Below are positions 10,710-50,827 of a stretch of DNA of 64,000 nt, in pieces (the first letter of the stretch is position 1; each line of letters begins with the position of its first letter). The DNA comes from an uncultured Maricaulis sp. (GTDB lineage: Bacteria; Pseudomonadota; Alphaproteobacteria; Caulobacterales; Maricaulaceae), in assembly GCF_947259345.1 (NCBI RefSeq), contig NZ_CAMYLS010000019.1, positions 1 through 64,000 on the forward strand, written 5' to 3'. The position numbers and the translations under genes were made by a program. The notes below the pieces were generated by a model. That model was given only the letters and a program-made list of their open reading frames with translations, was not told the DNA's origin and did no database searches.

Positions 10710-11568
10710 TCAGGGGAAGTTTGAGATAGCGCGTGCCATTGTCCGCCGGCGGCGGCAGATTGCCCGCCCGCATATTGACCTGGACCGAGGGCAGGATCAG
10801 GCGCGGCATGGCCAGTTCGGCATCGCGCTTGGTGCGCATGGCGACGAATTCGTCCTCGCTTATGCCGGTATGGACGTGGATGTTCTTGGCCTTCTGCTCG
10901 GCGACGCTTGTTTCCCATTCGAAATGATCGCGGCCCGGTGCCTTGTAGTCATGACACATGAAAAGACGGGTCTCGTCCGGGAGTGCGAAAATGCGCTGGA
11001 TTGAGGCGTAGAGCGCGCTCGCATCACCGCCGGGGAAGTCGCAGCGTGCGGTCCCGAAATCGGGCATGAAGAGCGTGTCGCCGACGAAGGCCGCGTCGCC
11101 GACATGGTAGACCATGCAGGCCGGCGTGTGGCCAGGCGTGTAGATTGCTTCGGCGTCGATCGAACCGATTTTGAACCGCTCGCCATCCTTGAACAAATGG
11201 CCGAATTGCGAGCCGTCACGGGCAAATTCGGGCTCAGCGTCGAACAGGTCGCCGAACACGGCCTGGACATGGGTGACATGCGACCCAATACCGATCTGGC
11301 CGCCGGTTTCGCGCGCCAGATACGGCGCGGCCGAGAGGTGGTCGGCATGGACATGGGTTTCCAGCACCCAGTCGATCGTCAGGCCCTCGCGGCGGACATG
11401 CTCGAGCAGGATATCGGCCGAGCGGGTCGCGGTGCGTCCGGAGGCGGGGTCGAAGTCCAGCACGGAATCGATGATCGCCGCGCGCTTGGTCGCGGGATCG
11501 GATACCACATAGCTGACGGTGAAAGTGTCTTCATCGAAGAAGGCTTGTACGTGCGGTGTCTGTGTCAT
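10699..11568 (-). CDS. Metallo-beta-lactamase-fold persulfide dioxygenase-like hydrolase (Blh/ETHE1 type)
   Basis: A 289-residue MBL-fold protein with the metal motif THVHADHLSA, a second histidine in TPGHTPACM, VGDTLFMPDFGTARCDFPGG, and a later MCHDY. The DxGTxRxDF motif is typical of the ETHE1/Blh group, which oxidises glutathione persulfide to sulfite with mononuclear iron. The ATG at 11568 is preferred over an upstream in-frame start because the earlier stretch covers the promoter. Neighbours (rhodanese, BigR-type sensor, SulP permease) strongly support sulfide detoxification. Soluble, no signal peptide. Confidence 0.9.
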   Translation of the reverse strand: MTQTPHVQAFFDEDTFTVSYVVSDPATKRAAIIDSVLDFDPASGRTATRSADILLEHVRREGLTIDWVLETHVHADHLSAAPYLARETGGQIGIGSHVTHVQAVFGDLFDAEPEFARDGSQFGHLFKDGERFKIGSIDAEAIYTPGHTPACMVYHVGDAAFVGDTLFMPDFGTARCDFPGGDASALYASIQRIFALPDETRLFMCHDYKAPGRDHFEWETSVAEQKAKNIHVHTGISEDEFVAMRTKRDAELAMPRLILPSVQVNMRAGNLPPPADNGTRYLKLPLNAV

Positions 11569-11614
11569 GGCTCGGCCTTTCCGTCTGCCGATCAAATTCA
11601 TTCTGTGGTCTACA

Positions 11615-11651
11615 TATAATATATTTGCAAAACTATGCAAGTACGATTATA
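11615..11651. promoter_or_regulatory. Face-to-face promoters around an ArsR-type operator
   Basis: A plus-strand TATAAT (11615-11620) and a minus-strand TATAAT (11651-11646) flank the inverted repeat TTGCA-AAACTA-TGCAA (11625-11640) by 4 and 5 bases. The plus box would serve the rhodanese gene, the minus box the dioxygenase-sulP pair. The -35 regions are weak. The repeat followed by GTA recurs at 12555-12573 before the ArsR-type gene, marking it as the likely operator. Confidence 0.7.
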
Positions 11652-11700
11652 TCAGGATCAACAGCCCGAAGCCGGGCCACGCAATGATTGGAATTCTACT

Positions 11701-12228
11701 ATGACAGACCACAAGGATTTTGAACCGCAGGACGTGCAGGCCGGCCTGGAAGCCGGGCGTTATCTCCTGATTGATGTCCGCGAGCCGGGCGAGTTTGCCG
11801 ATGAGCGCATTCCCGGCGCCATCCTGGCGCCGCTGTCCGGTTTCAATCCGAAGACCCTGCCGCGCGGCGAGGATCGCGAGATCATCCTGCACTGCAAGTC
11901 CGGCGGACGATCCGGGCGTGCCTTGCAAATGTGCCGTGAGGCAGGGGTTGATGTGGCCGGCCATGTAAAGGGCGGGATTCTCAACTGGAAAACCTGCCAG
12001 CTGGCCACGGAAAGGGCCGAGAATGCCCCGACCGGCATGACCATCCAGCAGGCTGTCATGGCCATGGCGTCCTTCCTGATGCTGGTCTCGGTGGGGCTGG
12101 GTGTCGTGATTTCGCCCTGGTGGCTGCTGCTCGGCGCCGGCGTCAGCGGCATGTTGCTGCAGGCAAGCTTCACGGGTTTTTGCCCGGCCAGTTCGATCTT
12201 CGCCCGTCTTGGCTTCCGCCCGGGTTAG
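11701..12228 (+). CDS. Membrane rhodanese with C-terminal DUF2892 (YgaP-like)
   Basis: A 175-residue protein with an N-terminal rhodanese domain (about residues 5-105; active loop HCKSGGRSG with Cys65) and two hydrophobic helices (about 117-160) of the DUF2892 type, the same layout as E. coli YgaP. Rhodaneses transfer sulfane sulfur between thiols. The ATG at 11701 begins at MTDHKDFE; an upstream in-frame start would cover the operator and is rejected. It is divergent from the persulfide dioxygenase gene through a shared operator and convergent with the ArsR-type gene, with stop codons overlapping by 4 bases. Inner membrane, active site likely cytosolic. Confidence 0.9.
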   Translation: MTDHKDFEPQDVQAGLEAGRYLLIDVREPGEFADERIPGAILAPLSGFNPKTLPRGEDREIILHCKSGGRSGRALQMCREAGVDVAGHVKGGILNWKTCQLATERAENAPTGMTIQQAVMAMASFLMLVSVGLGVVISPWWLLLGAGVSGMLLQASFTGFCPASSIFARLGFRPG

Positions 12229-12551
12229 ATGGACGGTGTCTCGTCCGGGTCGCAATAGGTCGCGTACAAGGCGGACATCACGGCGGTAATACGGGCATCG
12301 GCCAGGCCATAATAAATGGTCTGGCCGTCCCGCCGTGTGCTGACCAGGCCCTTGTTTCTCAAGATCGCCAATTGCTGCGACATGGCCTGGTCGCGCATGC
12401 CCAATGCTTCGGCGAGCTCGCCGACCGAGCGCTCCTTCTCCATCATCGCGCAGAGGGCGAGAAGGCGATTGGGGTGGGCCAGGGTCTTCATGAGATCGGC
12501 CACCGTCTCAGCCATCGGCTTCATGTCATCATACTGCATGGCGGAACTCAT
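12225..12551 (-). CDS. ArsR-family persulfide sensor (BigR/SqrR type)
   Basis: A 108-residue winged-helix repressor with MRDQAMSQQLAILRNKGLVS as the recognition part. It carries exactly two cysteines, Cys34 and Cys100, 66 residues apart, the spacing of the SqrR pair (Cys41/Cys107) that forms a polysulfide bridge and releases DNA. No metal-site cysteine pair (CVC) is present, which argues against ArsR/SmtB metal sensing. A copy of the operator repeat lies 4 to 19 bases upstream of the ATG, abutting a TATACT -10 box, so autorepression is likely. An internal ATG four codons in (12539) is an alternative start. Confidence 0.9.
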   Translation of the reverse strand: MSSAMQYDDMKPMAETVADLMKTLAHPNRLLALCAMMEKERSVGELAEALGMRDQAMSQQLAILRNKGLVSTRRDGQTIYYGLADARITAVMSALYATYCDPDETPSI

Positions 12552-12554
12552 TAG

Positions 12555-12577
12555 TTGCGTAGCTTCGCAAGTATATA
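12555..12577 (-). promoter_or_regulatory. Operator and -10 box of the ArsR-type gene
   Basis: TTGCG-TAGCTT-CGCAA (12555-12570) followed by GTA matches the repeat at 11625-11643 at 14 of 19 positions, including TTGC, the central CT and GCAAGTA. On the minus strand TATACT (12575-12570) abuts it, so a bound repressor would cover the start of transcription. Confidence 0.65.
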
Positions 12578-12637
12578 AGCGGTGGCTGGCGCGACGCCAA
12601 GCAAGCCCCGGACTGCATCCCGGCTGAATTTGCTATT

Positions 12638-12655
12638 GTGTTAGCGCGCTAACAC
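12638..12655. promoter_or_regulatory. Perfect palindrome upstream of the his operon
   Basis: GTGTTAGCGCGCTAACAC is an 18-bp perfect palindrome ending 28 bases before the TrpR-like gene that opens the his operon. It is in the right place for an operator at the start of transcription, and TrpR-family dimers bind palindromes of this size. It is the natural candidate site for that protein. Confidence 0.6.
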
Positions 12656-12683
12656 GCTATATCGACGGTCAAGGAGCCCACCC

Positions 12684-13001
12684 ATGACCGATACGAGCCA
12701 GTCTTCCAGTGCTGCTGGCACTGATTTGCAGCCTCTCAGCGAGGCGATCCTTGCCCTGCGTGATGCCGGTGAAGCCGAACGCTTTTTGCGCGATCTCCTC
12801 ACGCCGGGCGAAATGAAAACGCTGACAGAACGCTGGCGAGTTGCCGGCCTGCTCAATGAAGGTGGGCATTCCTATCGTGAAATTTCCGAGATGACCGGCG
12901 CCAGCACCACCACCGTGACACGGGTCGCCCGCTTTCTCAGCCAGGAGCCCTGGCAGGGCTATCGCACCATTCTCAACCGTCTCAAGGAGAGCCAATCGTG
13001 A
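12684..13001 (+). CDS. TrpR-like (YerC/YecD family) regulator, probable his-operon repressor
   Basis: A 105-residue protein of the TrpR superfamily: LLTPGEMKTLTERWRVAGLL followed by the helix-turn-helix YREISEMTGASTTTVTRVARF. YerC/YecD-type proteins often precede hisG and have been proposed as histidine-responsive repressors. Its stop overlaps the hisG start (GTGA), so it is the first gene of the his operon, and a perfect palindrome sits just upstream. Cytosolic, likely dimer. Family clear; the ligand (histidine) is inferred from position only. Confidence 0.85.
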   Translation: MTDTSQSSSAAGTDLQPLSEAILALRDAGEAERFLRDLLTPGEMKTLTERWRVAGLLNEGGHSYREISEMTGASTTTVTRVARFLSQEPWQGYRTILNRLKESQS

Positions 13002-13882
13002 CCTCCCGTCTGCGTATTGCCGTACAAAGCAAGGGCCGTCTGGCAGAAGGAGGCATGGACCTCCTCAAGCGCTGTGGCCTGCGTTTCGCCTATGGGCGTG
13101 ACAAGCTCCACCAGCGAGCCGAGAACATGCCGGTCGATCTGATGCTGGTGCGCGATGACGACATCCCCAACTTCGTCGGCAGCGGCGCCTGCGACTACGG
13201 CATTGTCGGTGAAAATGTGCTGGCCGAGGAGCAGGCCGCCGGCGGTCGCGCCCGCGAACTGGAAGTGGCCCTGCGTCTCGGCTTTGCCGGTTGTACGCTG
13301 AAACTGGCGGCGCCTCAGGACGGCGATATCCGCTCGGTCGAGGATCTGGCCGGCAAGGCGATTGCGACCTCCTATCCGGCTCTCACCGCGAAATATCTGA
13401 AGGATCGTGGCATTGAGGCGGAAATCGTCGAGATGCGCGGTTCGGTGGAAGTGGCACCGCGCCTGCGCATTGCCGATGCGATCTGTGACCTGGTGTCTTC
13501 AGGCGCGACTCTGCAGGCGAATGGTCTCAAAGCCTTTGAGACCGTGCTCAAGAGTGAAGCCGTGATGATCCGTCGGAAGGCAGACCGCGCTGCGGACACG
13601 GATGCCATCGCCAACGTCCTGATGCGTCGCGCCGATGGCGTCATTGCCTCCTCGCAGACCAAATACATCATGCTAAACGCGCCGACCGACCGGCTTGATG
13701 CCATCCGCGCTCTCTTGCCAGGCGCCGATGCACCCACCATCGCCAAGGTCGCTGGACGCGAGGATGTCGTCGCGGTCCATGCCGTGTGCCGCGAGCGGGT
13801 CTTCTGGGAAACGCTGGAAGCCCTCGAAAAGGAAGGCGCGCGCGCCATCCTCGTCCTGCCGATCGAAAAAATGCTCGCCTGA
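12998..13882 (+). CDS. hisG: ATP phosphoribosyltransferase, long form
   Basis: A 294-residue HisG catalysing the first step of histidine synthesis from ATP and PRPP. It has IAVQSKGRL at the N-terminus, the DYGIVGENVL and ADAICDLVSSGATLQANGL signatures, and a C-terminal PII-like regulatory domain (about residues 215-294), so it is the long, hexameric, histidine-inhibited form that needs no HisZ. Translation starts at GTG 12998, overlapping the TrpR-like stop by 4 bases. Many alphaproteobacteria have the short HisG plus HisZ, so the long form adds to the impression of a gammaproteobacterial-style operon. Confidence 0.96.
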   Translation: MTSRLRIAVQSKGRLAEGGMDLLKRCGLRFAYGRDKLHQRAENMPVDLMLVRDDDIPNFVGSGACDYGIVGENVLAEEQAAGGRARELEVALRLGFAGCTLKLAAPQDGDIRSVEDLAGKAIATSYPALTAKYLKDRGIEAEIVEMRGSVEVAPRLRIADAICDLVSSGATLQANGLKAFETVLKSEAVMIRRKADRAADTDAIANVLMRRADGVIASSQTKYIMLNAPTDRLDAIRALLPGADAPTIAKVAGREDVVAVHAVCRERVFWETLEALEKEGARAILVLPIEKMLA

Positions 13883-13905
13883 GCAGTGCACTCGGGATCA
13901 AGACC

Positions 13906-15801
13906 ATGATGGATATTCTGAACTGGACAGATGCCTCCGAAGAGGCTCGCGCTGCGGCGCTCGCCCGCCCGATCGGCATCGATACCGCCGACGCCGCGGC
14001 GCGTGATATCGTCGATGCCATTCGCGACAAGGGCGAGGCGGGCGTGCGCGCCTATGCCCAGCGCCTCGACGGCTATGCACCAGAGAGATTCCGGGTGTCG
14101 CCGGAAGCCATTCGTGCGGCGCGCGCGGCGATGGATCCGGCTGATGCCGAGGCGATCAAGGCCGCCGCGGATGCCGTGCGGCGTTTCCACATCCGCCAAG
14201 GCTATCGCAATTACTCGGTCGAAACCTGGCCGGGCGTGACCGCCTCGCGCCGGGCCACGCCGATCGACACCGCTGCGCTCTATGTGCCGGCCGGGTCGGC
14301 GCCGCTGGTCTCGACCCTGGTCATGCTGGCCGTGCCGGCTCAGCTCGCTGGCGTGCCCCGGATTGTTGTCGTTGCGCCGCCGAGCGGTGAGGGCGGTGTC
14401 AATCCGGCGCTTCTGGCTGCGGCGGACCTGCTCGGTCTGGACGAGGTCTACGCGCTGGGCGGCGCCCAGGCTGTCGCCGCGCTGGCGGGCGGGGTTGCCG
14501 GCCTGCCGCGCGCCGACAAGATTTTCGGCCCGGGCAATGCCTATGTCGCGGCTGCCAAGGCCTATGTCAGCAGTCTCCCGGGTGGACCGGCGGTCGACCT
14601 GCCGGCCGGGCCAAGTGAGGTCATGGTAATCGCCGATGACCAGGCCGATCCGGACCTGGTCGCCAGTGACCTTCTCAGCCAGGCCGAGCACGACCCCTCG
14701 GCCCAGGTCATGCTGGTCTGTTTCGATGACGCGACCGCGGCGCGTGTCATGGAGTCCGTCGACCGCCTGCTGGCCGGCCTGTCGCGGGCTGATATTGCCC
14801 GCAAGGCGCTTTCGGCCTCCCGGGCGTTGATCTGCAATACCGTCGAGGATGCGATCGAGATCGCCAATCTCTACGCGCCCGAACACCTTATCCTGCAGGC
14901 CGAGGCGAGCGAACGCCTGCTGGCCGGCGTGCGTCATGCCGGCTCGATCTTTGTCGGGGCTTGGACCCCGGAGGCAGCCGGTGACTATGCCGCCGGACCC
15001 AATCACACCCTGCCGACAGCGGGTGCCGCGAAGGCCTATGGCGGTGTCAGCGTGGAAAGCTTCCAGAAGACCACCACCATCCTGCGCGCCAGCCGCGAAG
15101 GCGCTGCGTCCATGGCGCCGACCGTGGAGCGACTGGCCGCGCTGGAACAGCTTGATGCCCATGCCCTGGCCATGCGCTTGCGGTGCGAGAAGGCTGGCTC
15201 GCTCGTCCCGGAGACGGGCGATCAACCGCGCGCCGGCACCAAGCGACGCAAGACCAAGGAGACCGATGTCACCGTCACGGTCGATCTCGATCGCGACGGT
15301 CCGATCCGGATCTCCACCGGGATCGGCTATTTCGACCACATGCTCGACCAGATTGCGCGCCATGGCGGCTTCTCGCTGGACGTCGCGGTGGAAGGCGATC
15401 TGGAGATTGATGGTCACCACACGATCGAGGATGTGTGCCTGACCTTCGGTGAGGCGCTGCGCGATGCGCTCGGCGACAAGCGTGGTCTAGGTCGGTTCGG
15501 CTTTGAGCTGCCCATGGATGAAAGCCGTGCCGCGGTCTGGATCGACCTCTCCGGGCGACCTTTTGCGCGCTTTGAAGGCGAGATCCCCGGTGAGAGTGTT
15601 GGCGAGTTTCCGGTCGAGATGACGGCGCATTGTTTCCGCTCGATCGCCGAAAGCCTCGGTGCCGCCATCCATATGAAGGTGGAGGGCGAGAATGCCCACC
15701 ACATGGTGGAAAGCTGCTTCAAGGCCTTTGGCCGGGCCCTGCGACAGGCCTTGCGTGTCGAGGGCGATGCCTTGCCATCGACCAAGGGCATGCTGGCATG
15801 A
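13906..15801 (+). CDS. hisDB: HisD-HisB fusion: histidinol dehydrogenase + imidazoleglycerol-phosphate dehydratase
   Basis: One open frame of 631 residues joins two enzymes. Residues 1-430 are HisD: the four zinc ligands fall at E. coli numbering (Gln259 and His262 in SQAEHD, Asp360 in AGDYAAG, His419 in DAHAL), and LYAPEHLIL is intact. After a polar linker (about 431-445), residues 446-631 are HisB-type dehydratase: KRRKTKETDVTV, STGIGYFDHMLDQ, GHHTIED (about 503-509) and AHHMVES (His598, His599), the Mn-binding histidines. There is no stop or good ribosome-binding site between them. HisB has no N-terminal phosphatase domain. Two adjacent ATGs (13906, 13909) could start it. The stop overlaps hisH. 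The enzymes catalyse non-consecutive steps, so tethering is not simple channelling. Confidence 0.93.
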   Translation: MMDILNWTDASEEARAAALARPIGIDTADAAARDIVDAIRDKGEAGVRAYAQRLDGYAPERFRVSPEAIRAARAAMDPADAEAIKAAADAVRRFHIRQGYRNYSVETWPGVTASRRATPIDTAALYVPAGSAPLVSTLVMLAVPAQLAGVPRIVVVAPPSGEGGVNPALLAAADLLGLDEVYALGGAQAVAALAGGVAGLPRADKIFGPGNAYVAAAKAYVSSLPGGPAVDLPAGPSEVMVIADDQADPDLVASDLLSQAEHDPSAQVMLVCFDDATAARVMESVDRLLAGLSRADIARKALSASRALICNTVEDAIEIANLYAPEHLILQAEASERLLAGVRHAGSIFVGAWTPEAAGDYAAGPNHTLPTAGAAKAYGGVSVESFQKTTTILRASREGAASMAPTVERLAALEQLDAHALAMRLRCEKAGSLVPETGDQPRAGTKRRKTKETDVTVTVDLDRDGPIRISTGIGYFDHMLDQIARHGGFSLDVAVEGDLEIDGHHTIEDVCLTFGEALRDALGDKRGLGRFGFELPMDESRAAVWIDLSGRPFARFEGEIPGESVGEFPVEMTAHCFRSIAESLGAAIHMKVEGENAHHMVESCFKAFGRALRQALRVEGDALPSTKGMLA

Positions 15802-16397
15802 TGATCGGTCTGATCGATACCGGCTGCGCCAATCTCGCCTCGGTCCGCTTTGCCCTGGAACGAGCCGGCTTGGACTACCGTGTGATAGCGACGCCTGCCG
15901 AGATGGCAGGCTGCGACCGCTTCATCCTGCCCGGCGTGGGGGCGGCTGGCCCGGCCATGGCGCGTCTGCGCGAGGCGGGTTGGGATGCGGCACTGAAGGC
16001 GGACCGTCGTCCCCTGCTGGGGATTTGCCTGGGCATGCAGATGCTGTTCGAGCGCTCGGCCGAGGGCGATGTTGAGTGCCTGGGGCTTCTTCCGGGCACG
16101 ATCGAGAAACTGCCCGCTCCGGAAGACGGTGTCTGGCCGCAAATGGGCTGGAATGCCCTGGAGGATCTTGATCCCGACGAGCCTCTGCTGGCGGGTGTCG
16201 AGGCCGGGGATCACGTCTATTTCGTGCATGGTTTCTACGCGCCGGTCGGTCCGGTCACGGCCGCGACCTGCGTCTATGGCCGTCCGGTCTCGGCGCTGGT
16301 GCGCCAGGACCATGTCGCGGGATGCCAGTTTCACCCGGAGCGGTCTGCCGTCGTGGGTGCGCGAATTTTGGCAAATTTTGCAACGAGTTCGGTATGA
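15798..16397 (+). CDS. hisH: Imidazole glycerol phosphate synthase, glutamine amidotransferase subunit
   Basis: A 199-residue class I amidotransferase that supplies ammonia to HisF. The nucleophile lies in LLGICLGMQ (Cys77), the His/Glu of the triad in FHPERS, and the oxyanion-loop region is PGVGA. The start ATG overlaps the hisDB stop (ATGATG; the second ATG at 15801 is equally possible), and its own stop overlaps hisA. Length and order hisH-hisA-hisF match standard his operons. Confidence 0.95.
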   Translation: MMIGLIDTGCANLASVRFALERAGLDYRVIATPAEMAGCDRFILPGVGAAGPAMARLREAGWDAALKADRRPLLGICLGMQMLFERSAEGDVECLGLLPGTIEKLPAPEDGVWPQMGWNALEDLDPDEPLLAGVEAGDHVYFVHGFYAPVGPVTAATCVYGRPVSALVRQDHVAGCQFHPERSAVVGARILANFATSSV

Positions 16398-17128
16398 TTC
16401 TTTATCCGGCAATTGACCTTCTGGACGGGCGTGTCGTGCGTCTGCACAAGGGCGAATTTGACGCCGTCACCGATTATGGCGGGGATCCGCGTGCGGTCGC
16501 CGAGCAATTCGGGGAGGCTGGCGCGACCTGGATTCATGTGGTCGATTTGAGCGGTGCCCGCGACGGGGCCCGCCGGCAGGGCGAGATCATTCGCACGATT
16601 TGCGAGACCGGCCTTCGCGTGCAGACCGGTGGCGGTGTGCGCACATCGGAAGACATTGAAGACCTGCTCGCAGCGGGCGTCGAGCGCGTCATCATCGGTT
16701 CATTGGCCGTGACCGATCCGGTGCGTGTGCGGGACTGGTTGCAGCGCTATGGCGGCGATCACATCACCCTGGCGCTCGATGTGCGCCGGATTGCAGGCCA
16801 GTACCGGCCAGCGCTCAAGGGCTGGACGGACACAACGGACACCACGCTGGAGGATGTCGTCGCGGCTTATAATGGCAGCGGCCTAGCTCATGCCCTGGTC
16901 ACGGATATCGGCCGCGATGGCGATCTCTCCGGCCCGAATATCGCCCTCTATGAACGTTTGGCGCGGGACTATCCCGGCATCGCCTGGCAGGCATCCGGCG
17001 GCGTGGCCTCGCTTGATGATCTGCGCGCGGCGAAGGCGGCAGGCGCGGCCGGCGCGATTTCCGGCAAGGCGCTCTACGAAGGCCGGTTCACGATTGCGGA
17101 GGCCCTGGCATGCTTGCGCGACGCATAA
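16394..17128 (+). CDS. hisA: ProFAR isomerase (phosphoribosylformimino-AICAR-P isomerase)
   Basis: A 244-residue (beta-alpha)8 barrel for the Amadori rearrangement of ProFAR. Catalytic Asp8 lies in YPAIDLLDG, the second acid in VTDIGRDGD, and the phosphate loops in TGGGVR and SGGVAS. Start ATG overlaps the hisH stop (ATGA); an in-frame upstream start lies inside hisH and is rejected. The end overlaps hisF by 19 bases, so hisF translation is coupled. Confidence 0.96.
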
Positions 17129-17877
17129 TTCCCTGCCTCGACGTGCGTGATGGGCGTGTGGTGAAAGGCGTTCGCTTCCGCGACCACGAGGATGTCGGTG
17201 ACATTGTCGACCTCGCCCGGCGCTATGCACAGGAAGGCGCGGATGAGCTGGTCTTTTATGACATCGCCGCCAGCGCCCGGGGCCGGACGGTGGAGCCGGA
17301 ATGGGTCAGCGCCGTTGCGCGTGAACTCGATATTCCCTTCTGTGTGGCAGGTGGGATCCGCTCCGTCGATGACGCCCGCGCGCGTCTGTTCGCCGGGGCC
17401 GACAAGATTTCCGTCAACACGCCGGCGCTCGAGGACCCCGTAATCATCAACCGGCTCGCCGCGGAGTTTGGCAGTCAGTGTGTGGTGCTTGGTGTCGACA
17501 GCCGGGTGATTGAAGGCGCCTGGCGGGTCCATCAATATACCGGCGATCCGGACAAGACCGTGGTCGGGCATCGTCGCACGCTGGACTGGATTGTCGAGGC
17601 CGTGGATCGCGGGGCTGGTGAGGTTGTGCTCAATTGCATGGACCAGGATGGCGTTCGCGACGGATATGATATCGAGCAATTGCAGGCGGCGAGGGCGGTG
17701 TGTACCACACCTTTGATCGCGTCCGGCGGGGCAGGACAAAAAGAGCACTTCAAATCCGTGTTCGAACTTGCCAAGGTCGATGGTGCGCTGGCCGCCAGCG
17801 TGTTTCACAAGGGGGTCATCGAGATCGGGCAGTTGAAGGCCTGGCTTGGTGGTGAGGGAATCAGGGTCAGACCATGA
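17110..17877 (+). CDS. hisF: Imidazole glycerol phosphate synthase, cyclase subunit
   Basis: A 255-residue barrel that takes ammonia from HisH and closes the imidazole ring, releasing AICAR. Asp11 ([13 protein letters not shown]) and the second catalytic aspartate in LNCMDQDG are present; phosphate loops AGGIRS and ASGGAG are intact. It begins inside the last 19 bases of hisA and ends overlapping hisIE by 4 bases. Confidence 0.96.
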
Positions 17878-18500
17878 TTGATGCGAATTCGCTCGACTGG
17901 AAAAAGGGCGACGGCCTGATTCCGGCGATCATCCAGGACGTGGCGACCCGCCAGGTTCTCATGCTGGGTTACATGAATGCCGAGGCGCTTGCGGCCACGC
18001 TCGAGAGCGGCAAGGTGCATTTCTTCTCGCGCTCGAAACAGAGGCTGTGGAAGAAGGGCGAGACCTCGGGCAACACGTTCAAACTGGTCGATCTGTCAGC
18101 CGACTGCGACAGCGATACGCTGCTCGTCGAGGTCAAGCCCAAGGGCCCGGCCTGCCATACCGGGACGGTGACCTGTTTCGGCGACGACCCGGGACCGGGT
18201 CTCGGTTTTCTTGCTCATTTGCGGGGCATCATCCGCAAGCGCAAGAAGGACAAGCCGAAGAATTCCTATGTTGGCGGGCTGATGGCGAAGGCGCCCAAGC
18301 GCCCGGCCCAGAAGGTCGGCGAGGAGGGCGTGGAAGTCGCGATGGCGGCAGTCTCGGAAAGCCGCGAGGAACTGGCCGGCGAAGCCGCCGACCTGCTTTT
18401 CCACCTCATGGTCCTGCTCGAGTCACGCGATCTCAGCCTGGAAGACGTGGTCGACATCCTGCGCAAGCGTCACGCCGTCCGGGCTTCCCGGCCGTCCTGA
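17874..18500 (+). CDS. hisIE: Bifunctional HisI-HisE (PR-AMP cyclohydrolase / PR-ATP pyrophosphatase)
   Basis: A 208-residue fusion covering steps 2 and 3 of histidine synthesis. The N-terminal cyclohydrolase (about 1-110) has [29 protein letters not shown] and zinc ligands including Cys in DCDSDTLL and ACHTG; the C-terminal pyrophosphohydrolase (about 118-205) has [10 protein letters not shown] and [13 protein letters not shown]. Fused HisIE is usual in gammaproteobacteria, whereas alphaproteobacteria mostly keep hisI and hisE apart. Last gene of the operon; a 7-bp stem without T-run (18502-18528) lies at its end. hisC is not in the operon. Confidence 0.95.
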
Positions 18501-18508
18501 GGCGTCCG

Positions 18509-19003
18509 TCAGTCGATAGGCCGGACGCAGCGGATCGTTGCGGCAATCCGCTCACCGGTTGGTCCGATGGACAGGTAGATGGCGTTGACGCCATCGCCGT
18601 CGATCGGATTGCCACCATTGTCATACGCGTCGCCGGCGTCGAGTGAGGCGCCGGCTGCGTCCATGGCGGCGTCGAAGCCGTTCCAGTCGCTGATCGGGCA
18701 GCTGACAAAACGGTCCAGCTGTCCGAACACCTGTCGCAATCGCATGATGTTCTGGGCATCTGCGCGCGCATCCATGGTCAGCGTGACCTCACGCTCGCTG
18801 CAATAGTCAGCGCTGAGCGTCACCACAGTGCCGTCCGGATATTCACCGCGCTCGGACCGGCCATCGGGTTCATCGCGAAGAATTTCGACATTGCGAAGGC
18901 GGCTGTCGGCAAAGCCGAACGTATAGCTGGTATGGTCGAGACAGGTCTCGGTCGACAGGGCGGCCGTGGCCGCCAAGGCAAGTGCAGTCATCATGGATGT
19001 CAT
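18509..19003 (-). CDS. Hypothetical exported protein
   Basis: A 164-residue protein with a short hydrophobic N-terminus (MMTALALAATAALST) that looks like a signal peptide. Four further cysteines (ETCLDH, DYCSER, VSCPIS, IRCVRP) suggest two disulfides in the periplasm. I do not recognise the family. It is convergent with the his operon, 8 bases from the hisIE stop, and stands alone on its strand in front of the hut genes. Start among three close Met codons is uncertain. Confidence 0.6.
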   Translation of the reverse strand: MTSMMTALALAATAALSTETCLDHTSYTFGFADSRLRNVEILRDEPDGRSERGEYPDGTVVTLSADYCSEREVTLTMDARADAQNIMRLRQVFGQLDRFVSCPISDWNGFDAAMDAAGASLDAGDAYDNGGNPIDGDGVNAIYLSIGPTGERIAATIRCVRPID

Positions 19004-19077
19004 AAATCCGGATTGGCCGGCCCCCGCGAATCGCTGGGCCTGTCAGACATGTGACCGACAGGCGGGGCTCTTGTCAT

Positions 19078-19830
19078 TCACTCTCGGCCATGGCGGCGCG
19101 GTCCGAACCGCTCGCTCATGACATGGCGGTCGCCGGGATGGGTCAGGCGCGCAAGCGTGACCACGTCTTCGCCCTGGAAGGTCCGCCGCTCGAGAACGAG
19201 GCAGGCCGCACCTGGCGCGACGCCCAGCGCGTTCGCCAGGCCGTCACTCGCATTGATGGCCGAGATCGTGTGCTCGGCCTCCGTCCAGGGCGTTTTGCGC
19301 AAGAGCCAGCCGCCGGGCCCCTCCTTGTCGAAATCGGCCTGGGCGGCTTCCGGCAGAAGGGCGAGATTGATCCAGCGCTCCTCATACTCGACGACCGCGT
19401 CATCGGCTGTATGCAGACAGCGCACATGCTGGACACGGGCGCCGTGCAGCAGCCGCATCTGGCGCGCGACATCCTCGTCGGCGGGCACGGTCTCGCTGGC
19501 CAGGCAGCGATAGCCGTAGCGCTGCCCGCGCGCCGGGATGGCGCTCGCCATGTCGACGATTTCCAGCATGGCAGCAGGGGCATCGGGCTGGGCCACAAAA
19601 CTGCCGGCGCGGCGCTTGCGGACCACCAGCCCGTCCTCGGTCAGGGCGCGCAGCGCCCGATTGACGGTCATCCGCGCCGTGCCGAAATGATCGCACAGAT
19701 CCGCCTCTGACGGCAGGCGATAGCCCGGCGCCCAGTCTCCTGTTCGGATCTGGTCGAGGATGGCCCGGCGGATCTGGTCATAAACCGGCCCGTCATCATC
19801 CAGAGTGATCTGATCGCGCCAATCCGTCAT
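19078..19830 (-). CDS. hutC: GntR/HutC-family histidine-utilisation repressor
   Basis: A 250-residue GntR-family protein: winged helix at residues about 10-75 (YRLPSEADLCDHFGTARMTV, VVRKRRAGSFV) and a C-terminal UTRA ligand domain (about 95-240). HutC proteins repress hut genes and are released by urocanate. Its ATG overlaps the hutF stop (ATGA), so repressor and HutF are co-transcribed, and a HutC-like operator lies in the hutF/hutI intergenic region. An upstream start inside hutF is rejected. Confidence 0.93.
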   Translation of the reverse strand: MTDWRDQITLDDDGPVYDQIRRAILDQIRTGDWAPGYRLPSEADLCDHFGTARMTVNRALRALTEDGLVVRKRRAGSFVAQPDAPAAMLEIVDMASAIPARGQRYGYRCLASETVPADEDVARQMRLLHGARVQHVRCLHTADDAVVEYEERWINLALLPEAAQADFDKEGPGGWLLRKTPWTEAEHTISAINASDGLANALGVAPGAACLVLERRTFQGEDVVTLARLTHPGDRHVMSERFGPRRHGRE

Positions 19831-49945: not shown

Positions 49946-50827
49946 ATGTTCAAAGGGTCCATCACTGCACTCGTCACCCCATTCAAGAACGGGGCCGTTG
50001 ACGAAGAGGCTGTCATCGCCCTGACCGAGCGTCAGATTGCGGCCGGTACGCATGGACTCGTGCCGTGCGGAACGACGGGCGAAAGCGCGACCCTGACCTT
50101 TGCCGAACATATGCGCGTGGTCGAGATCGTCGCCGATACCGCGAAGGGGCGCGTGCCGGTCATTGCTGGCACCGGTTCGAACAATACGGCTGTCGCGATC
50201 GAGAACCAGCAGCGCGCCCTGGAATTGGGCGTTGATGCCGGGCTTGTGGTTGCCCCCTATTACAACAAGCCGAACCCGGAAGGTCTCTACCGGCATTTCA
50301 AGGCCATTCATGACGCGGTCGAATTGCCGATCATTGTCTATAACGTGCCGGGCCGGACCGTCGTCGATATCGATGCCGAGACAGTCGCGCGGATCGCGAT
50401 GCTGGAGCGTGTTGTGGGCATCAAGGACGCGACCGGCGATATGGCGCGTGTTTCCCGGCACCGTCTCCTGATCGACGGTGAATTCGTGCAATTGTCCGGT
50501 GATGACCCCTCGGCGCTCGGCTTCAACGCGACGGGCGGTGTCGGCGCGATCTCGGTGACGTCAAATGTCGCACCGGCCTTGTGCGCACAATTCCAGGACG
50601 CCACATTGTCCGGGGACTGGGATACGGCGCGGGCGCTGAATGATCGTCTGATGCCACTGCACAACGCCCTGTTCACCTCGTCCAGCCCCGGGCCGACCAA
50701 GTATGCGATGTCGGTTCTGGGTGTCATGAACACCGAATTGCGTCTGCCGCTGACCGAGCCGAATGAAGCGTCGAATGCTGCGGTGCGAGCGGCACTCGTC
50801 CATGCCGGCCTGCTGGATCAGGCCTGA
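49946..50827 (+). CDS. dapA: 4-hydroxy-tetrahydrodipicolinate synthase
   Basis: A 293-residue class I aldolase condensing pyruvate with aspartate semialdehyde, first step of the lysine/diaminopimelate branch. Schiff-base lysine Lys160 in [10 protein letters not shown], Tyr132 in IVYNVPGRT and the GTTGE motif are all in place. It is followed after 11 bases by smpB on the same strand, a pairing common in alphaproteobacteria. Cytosolic. Confidence 0.96.

Follow-up and report, generated by a model that had tools for sequence, protein, structure and literature searches.

Background

Histidine biosynthesis is a textbook model for the origin of gene fusions, and in the usual account neighbouring genes drift together and their joining is rewarded by channelling or co-regulation. 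Several of the systems described to date bear on the present case: HisB of E. coli (HisNB) is an IGPD domain with another His enzyme at its N-terminus, fungal HIS4 (HisI-HisE-HisD) joins HisD to His enzymes of non-consecutive steps, and in Acanthamoeba HisD sits inside a large multi-domain his protein. An excerpt of Fani et al. 2007 lists five his fusions, i.e., the elongation of hisA/hisF, hisIE, hisHF, hisNB, and HIS4, and places HisIE ahead of HisD in the last of these (PMC1963479). For Acanthamoeba, an extract of the report does not have IGPD among the domains of the fusion and describes its amplification as a separate gene (PMC6029752).

Here, we describe a HisD-HisB fusion encoded in the genome of an uncultured Maricaulis sp., within a stretch of 64,000 nucleotides (contig NZ_CAMYLS010000019.1) that was analysed as a whole and is called the window below. 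The fusion resembles E. coli HisNB in its operon order, and of the HisB models it is NF003937 (bifunctional HisB), in its dehydratase part, that gives the window HisB its best score, yet that model matches at positions 159-355 only (279 bits vs a cut-off of 443), the HAD phosphatase domain is absent, and the N-terminal partner is HisD; HisD and IGPD are the only Pfam domains in the protein. Unlike HIS4, it has HisD first and HisB as partner, with no HisI or HisE domain, hisIE being its own gene at 17874-18500. Other Caulobacterales carry a HisC-HisB protein, described below, in which the same HisB domain follows a different His enzyme immediately downstream of hisD, but the partner there is histidinol-phosphate aminotransferase, intact or decayed; it is the apparent direct ancestor of HisD-HisB. 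The original prediction, made from the sequence alone, had not counted HisD-HisB among the standard forms, and it is indeed absent from the five fusions excerpted from Fani et al. (PMC1963479); nor is HisD-HisB or HisC-HisB named in the hisD/hisB passage of a survey of fusions in archaea from 2024 (PMC11237513). Our search, which covered the open-access literature, found no description of HisD-HisB or of a natural HisC-HisB fusion. HisD-HisB is thus a his gene fusion, a known kind, in a pairing that appears new as far as this search found no description of it.

A single gene for HisD and HisB in a compact operon

The hisD::hisB gene (13906..15801, + strand) is one uninterrupted frame of 631 codons plus stop, running from ATG 13906 to TGA 15799-15801 and recognised from the ORF listing, the sequence, and Pfam and NCBIfam matches, and it holds the sole PF00815 and PF00475 matches of the whole 3.25 Mb genome (99.97% complete). 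The open frame extends 5' of this ATG, and the ORF listing gives GTG 13786 as an alternative start (671 aa); ATG 13906 is favoured, being 23 bases past the hisG stop and matching most congeners, whose matches start at residue 1. The fusion of another Maricaulis MAG (L092) is 94% identical to the window protein.

Both enzymes are complete, as had been claimed. The HisD (histidinol dehydrogenase) domain (aa 27-426; 13984..15183, + strand) matches PF00815 with 478.3 bits over profile positions 10-410 of 411 and TIGR00069 with 479.9 bits (cut-off 243.8). The HisB (IGPD) core (aa 471-612; 15316..15741, + strand) matches PF00475 with 187.6 bits over profile positions 1-144 of 144 and NF002111 with 235.6 bits (cut-off 231), and HisB-like sequence starts earlier, near aa 442, with many PDB IGPD chains aligning from ~aa 440-444. 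The residues Gln259, His262, Asp360, and His419, predicted and here also taken to be the HisD zinc ligands in E. coli numbering, bear the same numbers in the alignment to PDB chain 1k75/1kae, presumably E. coli HisD, and are invariant in 12/12 aligned fused proteins. In the HisB half, H478, H504, H505, E508, H575, H598, H599, and E602 are likewise invariant in all 12 and are matched in alignments to Arabidopsis IGPD; their correspondence to the Medicago manganese-binding residues, as given in an excerpt of that structural report, was read by motif and not by alignment to that chain (PMC10978614). Judged by these conserved residues, both halves look functional.

An AlphaFold2 model built from the 12 fused sequences (mean pLDDT 80.8, pTM 0.62; weak at 361-390 and at the C-terminus) ends the final HisD helix at 432 and begins the first HisB strand at 443. 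Between them lies a predicted coil linker (~aa 433-442; 15202..15231, + strand), with a mean pLDDT of 54 for 431-440 and a sequence that is not strongly conserved. In Foldseek, the HisD part of the model matched HisD structures with a TM-score to the target near 0.8 and an rmsd of 17-20 A in most full-chain alignments, perhaps reflecting the domain-swapped dimer of the real enzyme (title of 1k75), and the HisB part matched IGPD structures at an rmsd of 1.6-3.3 A.

The surrounding operon, all on the + strand, is compact and has the E. coli gene order minus hisC. A YerC/HisR-type TrpR-family regulator (12684..13001; TIGR02531, 63.1 bits vs a cut-off of 42.2) overlaps the start of hisG (12998..13882; TIGR00070 and TIGR03455), and the fusion is followed by hisH (15801..16397; TIGR01855), which has one base in common with the fusion's stop codon, hisA (16394..17128; TIGR00007), hisF (17110..17877; TIGR00735), and the hisIE gene (+ strand; NF002747). 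Simple channelling had been discounted in the original prediction, and we rejected it as the main reason for the fusion: the steps are non-consecutive, HisB catalysing step 6 and HisD steps 9-10, and HisC (C5:193481-194536) and two HisN-type phosphatases over cut-off lie on other contigs of the genome.

As to regulation, the perfect palindrome TGTTAGCGCGCTAACA lies at 12639-12654, 29 bases 5' of the yerC/hisR gene, and is on sequence grounds a candidate operator for the TrpR-family regulator; the form TGTTA-N6-TAACA occurs in 29/262 loci (some mutually overlapping), including 13 of the 18 fusion loci from Maricaulis (L003-L020). HisR has been reported in Caulobacterales, according to an extract of that report (PMC9413887). 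A yerC/hisR match is found near the operon in all scanned Caulobacterales and SAR86 operon loci other than two fused loci of genus g31 (L082 and L083, with L095 representing the same place as L083), which have none. The published proteobacterial HisR motif, allowing ≤3 mismatches, matched only at 50245-50264, far from the operon; no Rfam match at gathering scores was obtained in 11500-19500, and no sigma-70-type site was found in 12200-19100.

Distribution of the fusion

The same two-domain order, for which a search of other genomes had been proposed, was found in congeners, in one further family member, in the genus g31 of another family, and in the distantly related SAR86. All 18 other Maricaulis genomes carry the fusion, 17 at full length and one (G013) cut by a contig end. 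In a survey of 299 genomes of the family and order, with matches listed down to about E 3e-104, the fusion was present among the matches listed in 1 of 118 other sampled family members (G077) and in 7 of 162 other sampled order members, all seven belonging to g31; 15 of the 299 genomes (10 family, 5 order), some of them nearly complete, gave no match. A dedicated search of 30 g31 genomes recovered 10 full-length fusions and three partial matches fused across the junction (G300, G302, and G303), while the remainder comprised 10 genomes with separate operon-type genes, four without a match, and two left unclassed (G301 and G307). In one g31 genome (G239), alpha-type HisD and HisB are separate and lie far apart; thus both his systems are present within this genus.

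Among the best 80 of 586 named relatives, seven loci were fused: three of Maricaulis, one of the Hyphomonadaceae MAG bin.91 (L095), itself one of the g31 fusions, and three of SAR86 assemblies, one of which is a complete chromosome. The fusion on that chromosome scores over cut-off in both parts (HisD, 435.5 bits vs 243.8; HisB, 231.8 vs 231) and sits in an identical operon layout (hisG, hisD::hisB, hisH, hisA, hisF, hisIE). With a SAR86 fusion as query against a phylum draw of 398 genomes (matches listed down to near E 2e-70), a stop-free join was seen, among the matches listed, only in the window's own genome. Three MAGs outside Caulobacterales (L102, L103, and L105) have adjacent, in-frame hisD and hisB with one stop between them and no room for hisC, a state that is one mutation short of fusion, and G337:C59 likewise has hisD and hisB close and in frame, with a stop codon (TAA) between and no space for hisC.

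HisC-derived domains in unfused relatives

Thirty-three unfused operon loci were fetched from Caulobacterales genomes with operon-type hits, a choice that covers operon-type loci and not genomes with scattered alpha-type his genes. In all 33, HisB has an extra N-terminal part derived from HisC. The likely start of this part falls between 8 bases upstream and 7 bases downstream of the hisD end, and the part itself comes in three grades. The intact grade (11 loci: L062, L065, L068, L071, L073, L074, and L076-L080) is a complete HisC of ~355 residues (TIGR01141, 300 bits in L074), and by their sequence these loci are HisC-HisB fusion genes that put steps 7 and 6 in one protein. The degenerate grade (seven loci: L064, L066, L067, L069, L070, L072, and L075) has 253-286 residues, shorter by at least a fifth, and still aligns to intact HisC in hhalign at E 7e-44. 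A lysine that we take to be the PLP-binding, catalytic one is present in 11/11 intact domains and absent from 7/7 degenerate ones, and the Asp neighbouring it is found in 11/11 and still kept in 7/7.

The short grade (15 loci) is a remnant of 177-218 residues, which in the three loci scanned matched nothing in Pfam or NCBIfam at E 0.1. Its profile aligned in hhalign to intact HisC (E 1.6e-5, probability 79%) and to the degenerate form (E 1.1e-5, probability 82%), in a match confined to roughly the C-terminal half of the remnant and the final third of HisC, and the control against the fused proteins gave E 0.23. Taken together, the HisC-derived domains look, from their sequences, like a decay series in which the catalytic lysine is gone. 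Elsewhere, Balneolaceae HisB (L149:5136-6083) also has an N-terminal part, of ~110 residues. The N-terminal domain of Balneolota HisB is reported, in an extract of that report, to be unlike HisN (PMC8305728), and it may be another eroded partner domain.

A second HisC gene

A census of HisC, counting TIGR01141 matches over cut-off as full HisC, covered 46 genomes (34 + 12). A separate full HisC gene is present in 32/32 Caulobacterales genomes that have either an eroded HisC domain or HisD-HisB (for G162, the domain class comes from a partial HisC match beside hisD and not from fetched sequence) and in 3/3 SAR86. Nine of the 11 genomes with an intact operon HisC-HisB lack any other HisC, and two have both (G020, whose second HisC is barely over cut-off at 276.8 vs 276.55, and G024). 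With kinship on the tree taken into account, only two independent changes link intact operon HisC to absence of the other HisC, a number too small for testing.

The HisC tree places the separate copies among HisC of alphaproteobacteria and the operon copies among HisC from operons of gammaproteobacteria and Bacteroidota, a split with support 85, not starred. The separate HisC of G020 and G024 is 50-55% identical to that of Maricaulis and 29-30% to an operon HisC, and for the SAR86 copies these values are 36-40% and 25%; once these five rows were added, the alpha side no longer formed one group in the best tree, and its grouping was not rejected (p-AU 0.36). Two HisC genes of different descent therefore seem, by sequence, to have coexisted, with lineages then losing either one. 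In g31, a separate alpha-type hisC lies 2683-2710 bases past hisB in 12/12 genomes checked; in one of them (G223) it follows hisIE directly with overlapping ends (hisC at L083:10329-11408). The separate hisC of g31 has itself joined the his operon.

Number of origins and form of the join

On a tree of HisD plus HisB, the fused rows need three changes. By counting alone these could be one gain and two losses, which is implausible because each loss would mean regaining a HisC-derived domain at the same place. The topology tests reject one clade holding every Caulobacterales fusion (p-AU 2.6e-31) but not one of Maricaulis together with G077 (p-AU 0.234), and G077 may share its fusion origin with Maricaulis; the ten g31 fusions may form one clade (support 18). 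SAR86 falls outside the Caulobacterales clade, whose support is 99, in a 79-row tree that carries long-branch warnings (L107, L021, L078, and L146). The fusion thus arose more than once, at a minimum twice in Caulobacterales and once in SAR86, as follows from the rejected single clade and from the placement of SAR86. For the topology tests, 11 of the 79 rows were dropped (three SAR86, L102, L103, L105, L146, and L096-L099), and all trees were of the 'quick' kind. A transfer of the operon from gammaproteobacteria was also considered and left unadopted: alpha-type and operon-type HisB as one clade was not rejected (p-AU 0.123), and the HisD and HisB trees have no settled root.

The join itself was surveyed in 33 fused loci, of which L026 (cut) and L019 (incomplete interval) were set aside (n = 31). 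From His419, the last conserved His of HisD, to the TxET of HisB there are 28-32 residues in 28 Caulobacterales fusions and 23-25 in the three SAR86 fusions. Unfused HisD tails extend 8-16 residues past that His in 30 of 33 loci (18, 22, and 26 in the others). In stand-alone alpha-type HisB (n = 8), a Met lies 9-12 residues ahead of TxET in three proteins and only at 30-31 in two, and the other three show no Met within the stretch seen. Measured on these sequences, the join would be roughly the two natural ends plus up to ~ten residues, a length that fits a deletion between them.

A proposed origin and its alternatives

We consider it likely that HisD-HisB is a bifunctional enzyme produced by deleting a decayed, redundant HisC from between hisD and the HisB part of HisC-HisB. 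The ancestral operon would have had the order hisG-hisD-hisC-hisB-hisH-hisA-hisF-hisIE, as in E. coli, with HisC already fused to the N-terminus of HisB and the HisC-HisB start lying at or just inside the end of hisD. Where a second HisC gene of alphaproteobacterial type was kept, the operon HisC domain would have become redundant and decayed, and this in frame because HisB was translated through it. A deletion could then have taken the remnant, the hisD stop, and the start downstream of it, so that the natural tails of HisD and HisB, plus a few residues, now connect the two. This route is drawn from Caulobacterales intermediates; SAR86, counted as a separate origin, may have taken it or another.

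In the product, oxidation of histidinol to histidine (steps 9-10) would fall to the N-terminal half and dehydration of imidazoleglycerol phosphate (step 6) to the C-terminal half. The two active sites would be independent, presumably without direct channelling, since the reactions of HisC and the phosphatase lie between these steps. HisB enzymes are 24-mers, and in an extract of the plant IGPD report the N-terminal sheet faces outward (PMC10978614); enterobacterial HisN, in an extract of another, sits at the same HisB N-terminal position as HisD does here (PMC8305728). By analogy with these two, we expect the usual 24-subunit HisB shell, decorated on its outside with HisD through the HisB N-terminus and with independent activities.

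That an assembly or sequencing artefact erased a stop codon is hardly conceivable. Some MAGs do have in-frame, adjacent hisD and hisB with one stop between (L102, L103, and L105), and a TAA lies inside the G337 match, but the same join recurs across many independent assemblies, and its presence in 18/18 congeners, two of them single-contig genomes (G010 and G016), rules out chance and sequencing error; the 17 complete congener genes likewise contradict a stop or frameshift at residues 430-446. The predicted in-frame fusion is in this way confirmed by the single frame, two near-full Pfam domains, and all 18 congeners. If HisD-HisB were ancestral and the unfused relatives had gained HisC afterwards, one early fusion followed by splits would suffice and the number of gene fusions would be smaller, yet we hold this to be highly improbable: operon-type outgroups such as E. 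coli and Vibrio have hisC directly past hisD (HisC matches in L151 and L130) and a hisD-hisB gap of ~1600 bases, the domains resemble a decay series with the catalytic lysine gone, and the fused genes sit in clades with HisC-bearing forms.

Deletion of a decayed HisC would leave one polypeptide, and the working enzymes might still be separate if free HisB were also made from an internal start or if the linker were cut. For the window gene, two in-frame codons in the last helix of HisD, ATG at 423 and TTG at 425, could serve as such a start, the linker is a predicted coil of low confidence, and a start codon with a Shine-Dalgarno-like stretch occurs in 4/31 fused loci. However, the window's own ATG and TTG lack such a stretch, the same Met is present in many unfused HisD tails, and 5/31 loci have no ATG, GTG, or TTG in the interval at all, so that no internal start is conserved; a search for a conserved internal translation start across the 31 fused loci found none, and we regard this alternative as decidedly unlikely. 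Selection for the fusion itself, through a fixed HisD/HisB ratio or a late-pathway complex on which HisC and phosphatase dock, carries more weight, if still rather unlikely, as the separate origins arrived at one domain order with connections of similar length (28-32 residues in Caulobacterales, 23-25 in SAR86) and the fusion is kept in all 19 Maricaulis genomes seen. Against it stand the non-consecutive steps, the location of HisC and HisN on other contigs of the window's genome, and a connection not much longer than the summed natural tails; moreover, deletion of a useless remnant yields the same product without selection. A stronger version, in which HisC loss repeatedly gives rise to a selected HisB 24-mer shell of ~1.6 MDa with HisD dimers on its surface, a scaffold gathering HisC and phosphatase into a metabolon, is an unlikely one. 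The simplest reading is that the fusion is the scar left by deleting a useless remnant.

Conclusions

Living relatives present a graded series, from genomes with both HisC copies, through those with HisC-HisB alone, a lysine-less HisC, and a short remnant, to HisD-HisB. This series suggests another route to gene fusion than the usual account, in which a fusion would be the scar of a redundant middle enzyme, one whose clean loss was barred because translation of the next enzyme ran through it. With such a series at hand, whether a fusion was selected or accidental becomes directly testable, and the lineages that carry HisD-HisB would possess a bifunctional enzyme whose assembly, so far unexplored, may reach megadalton size.
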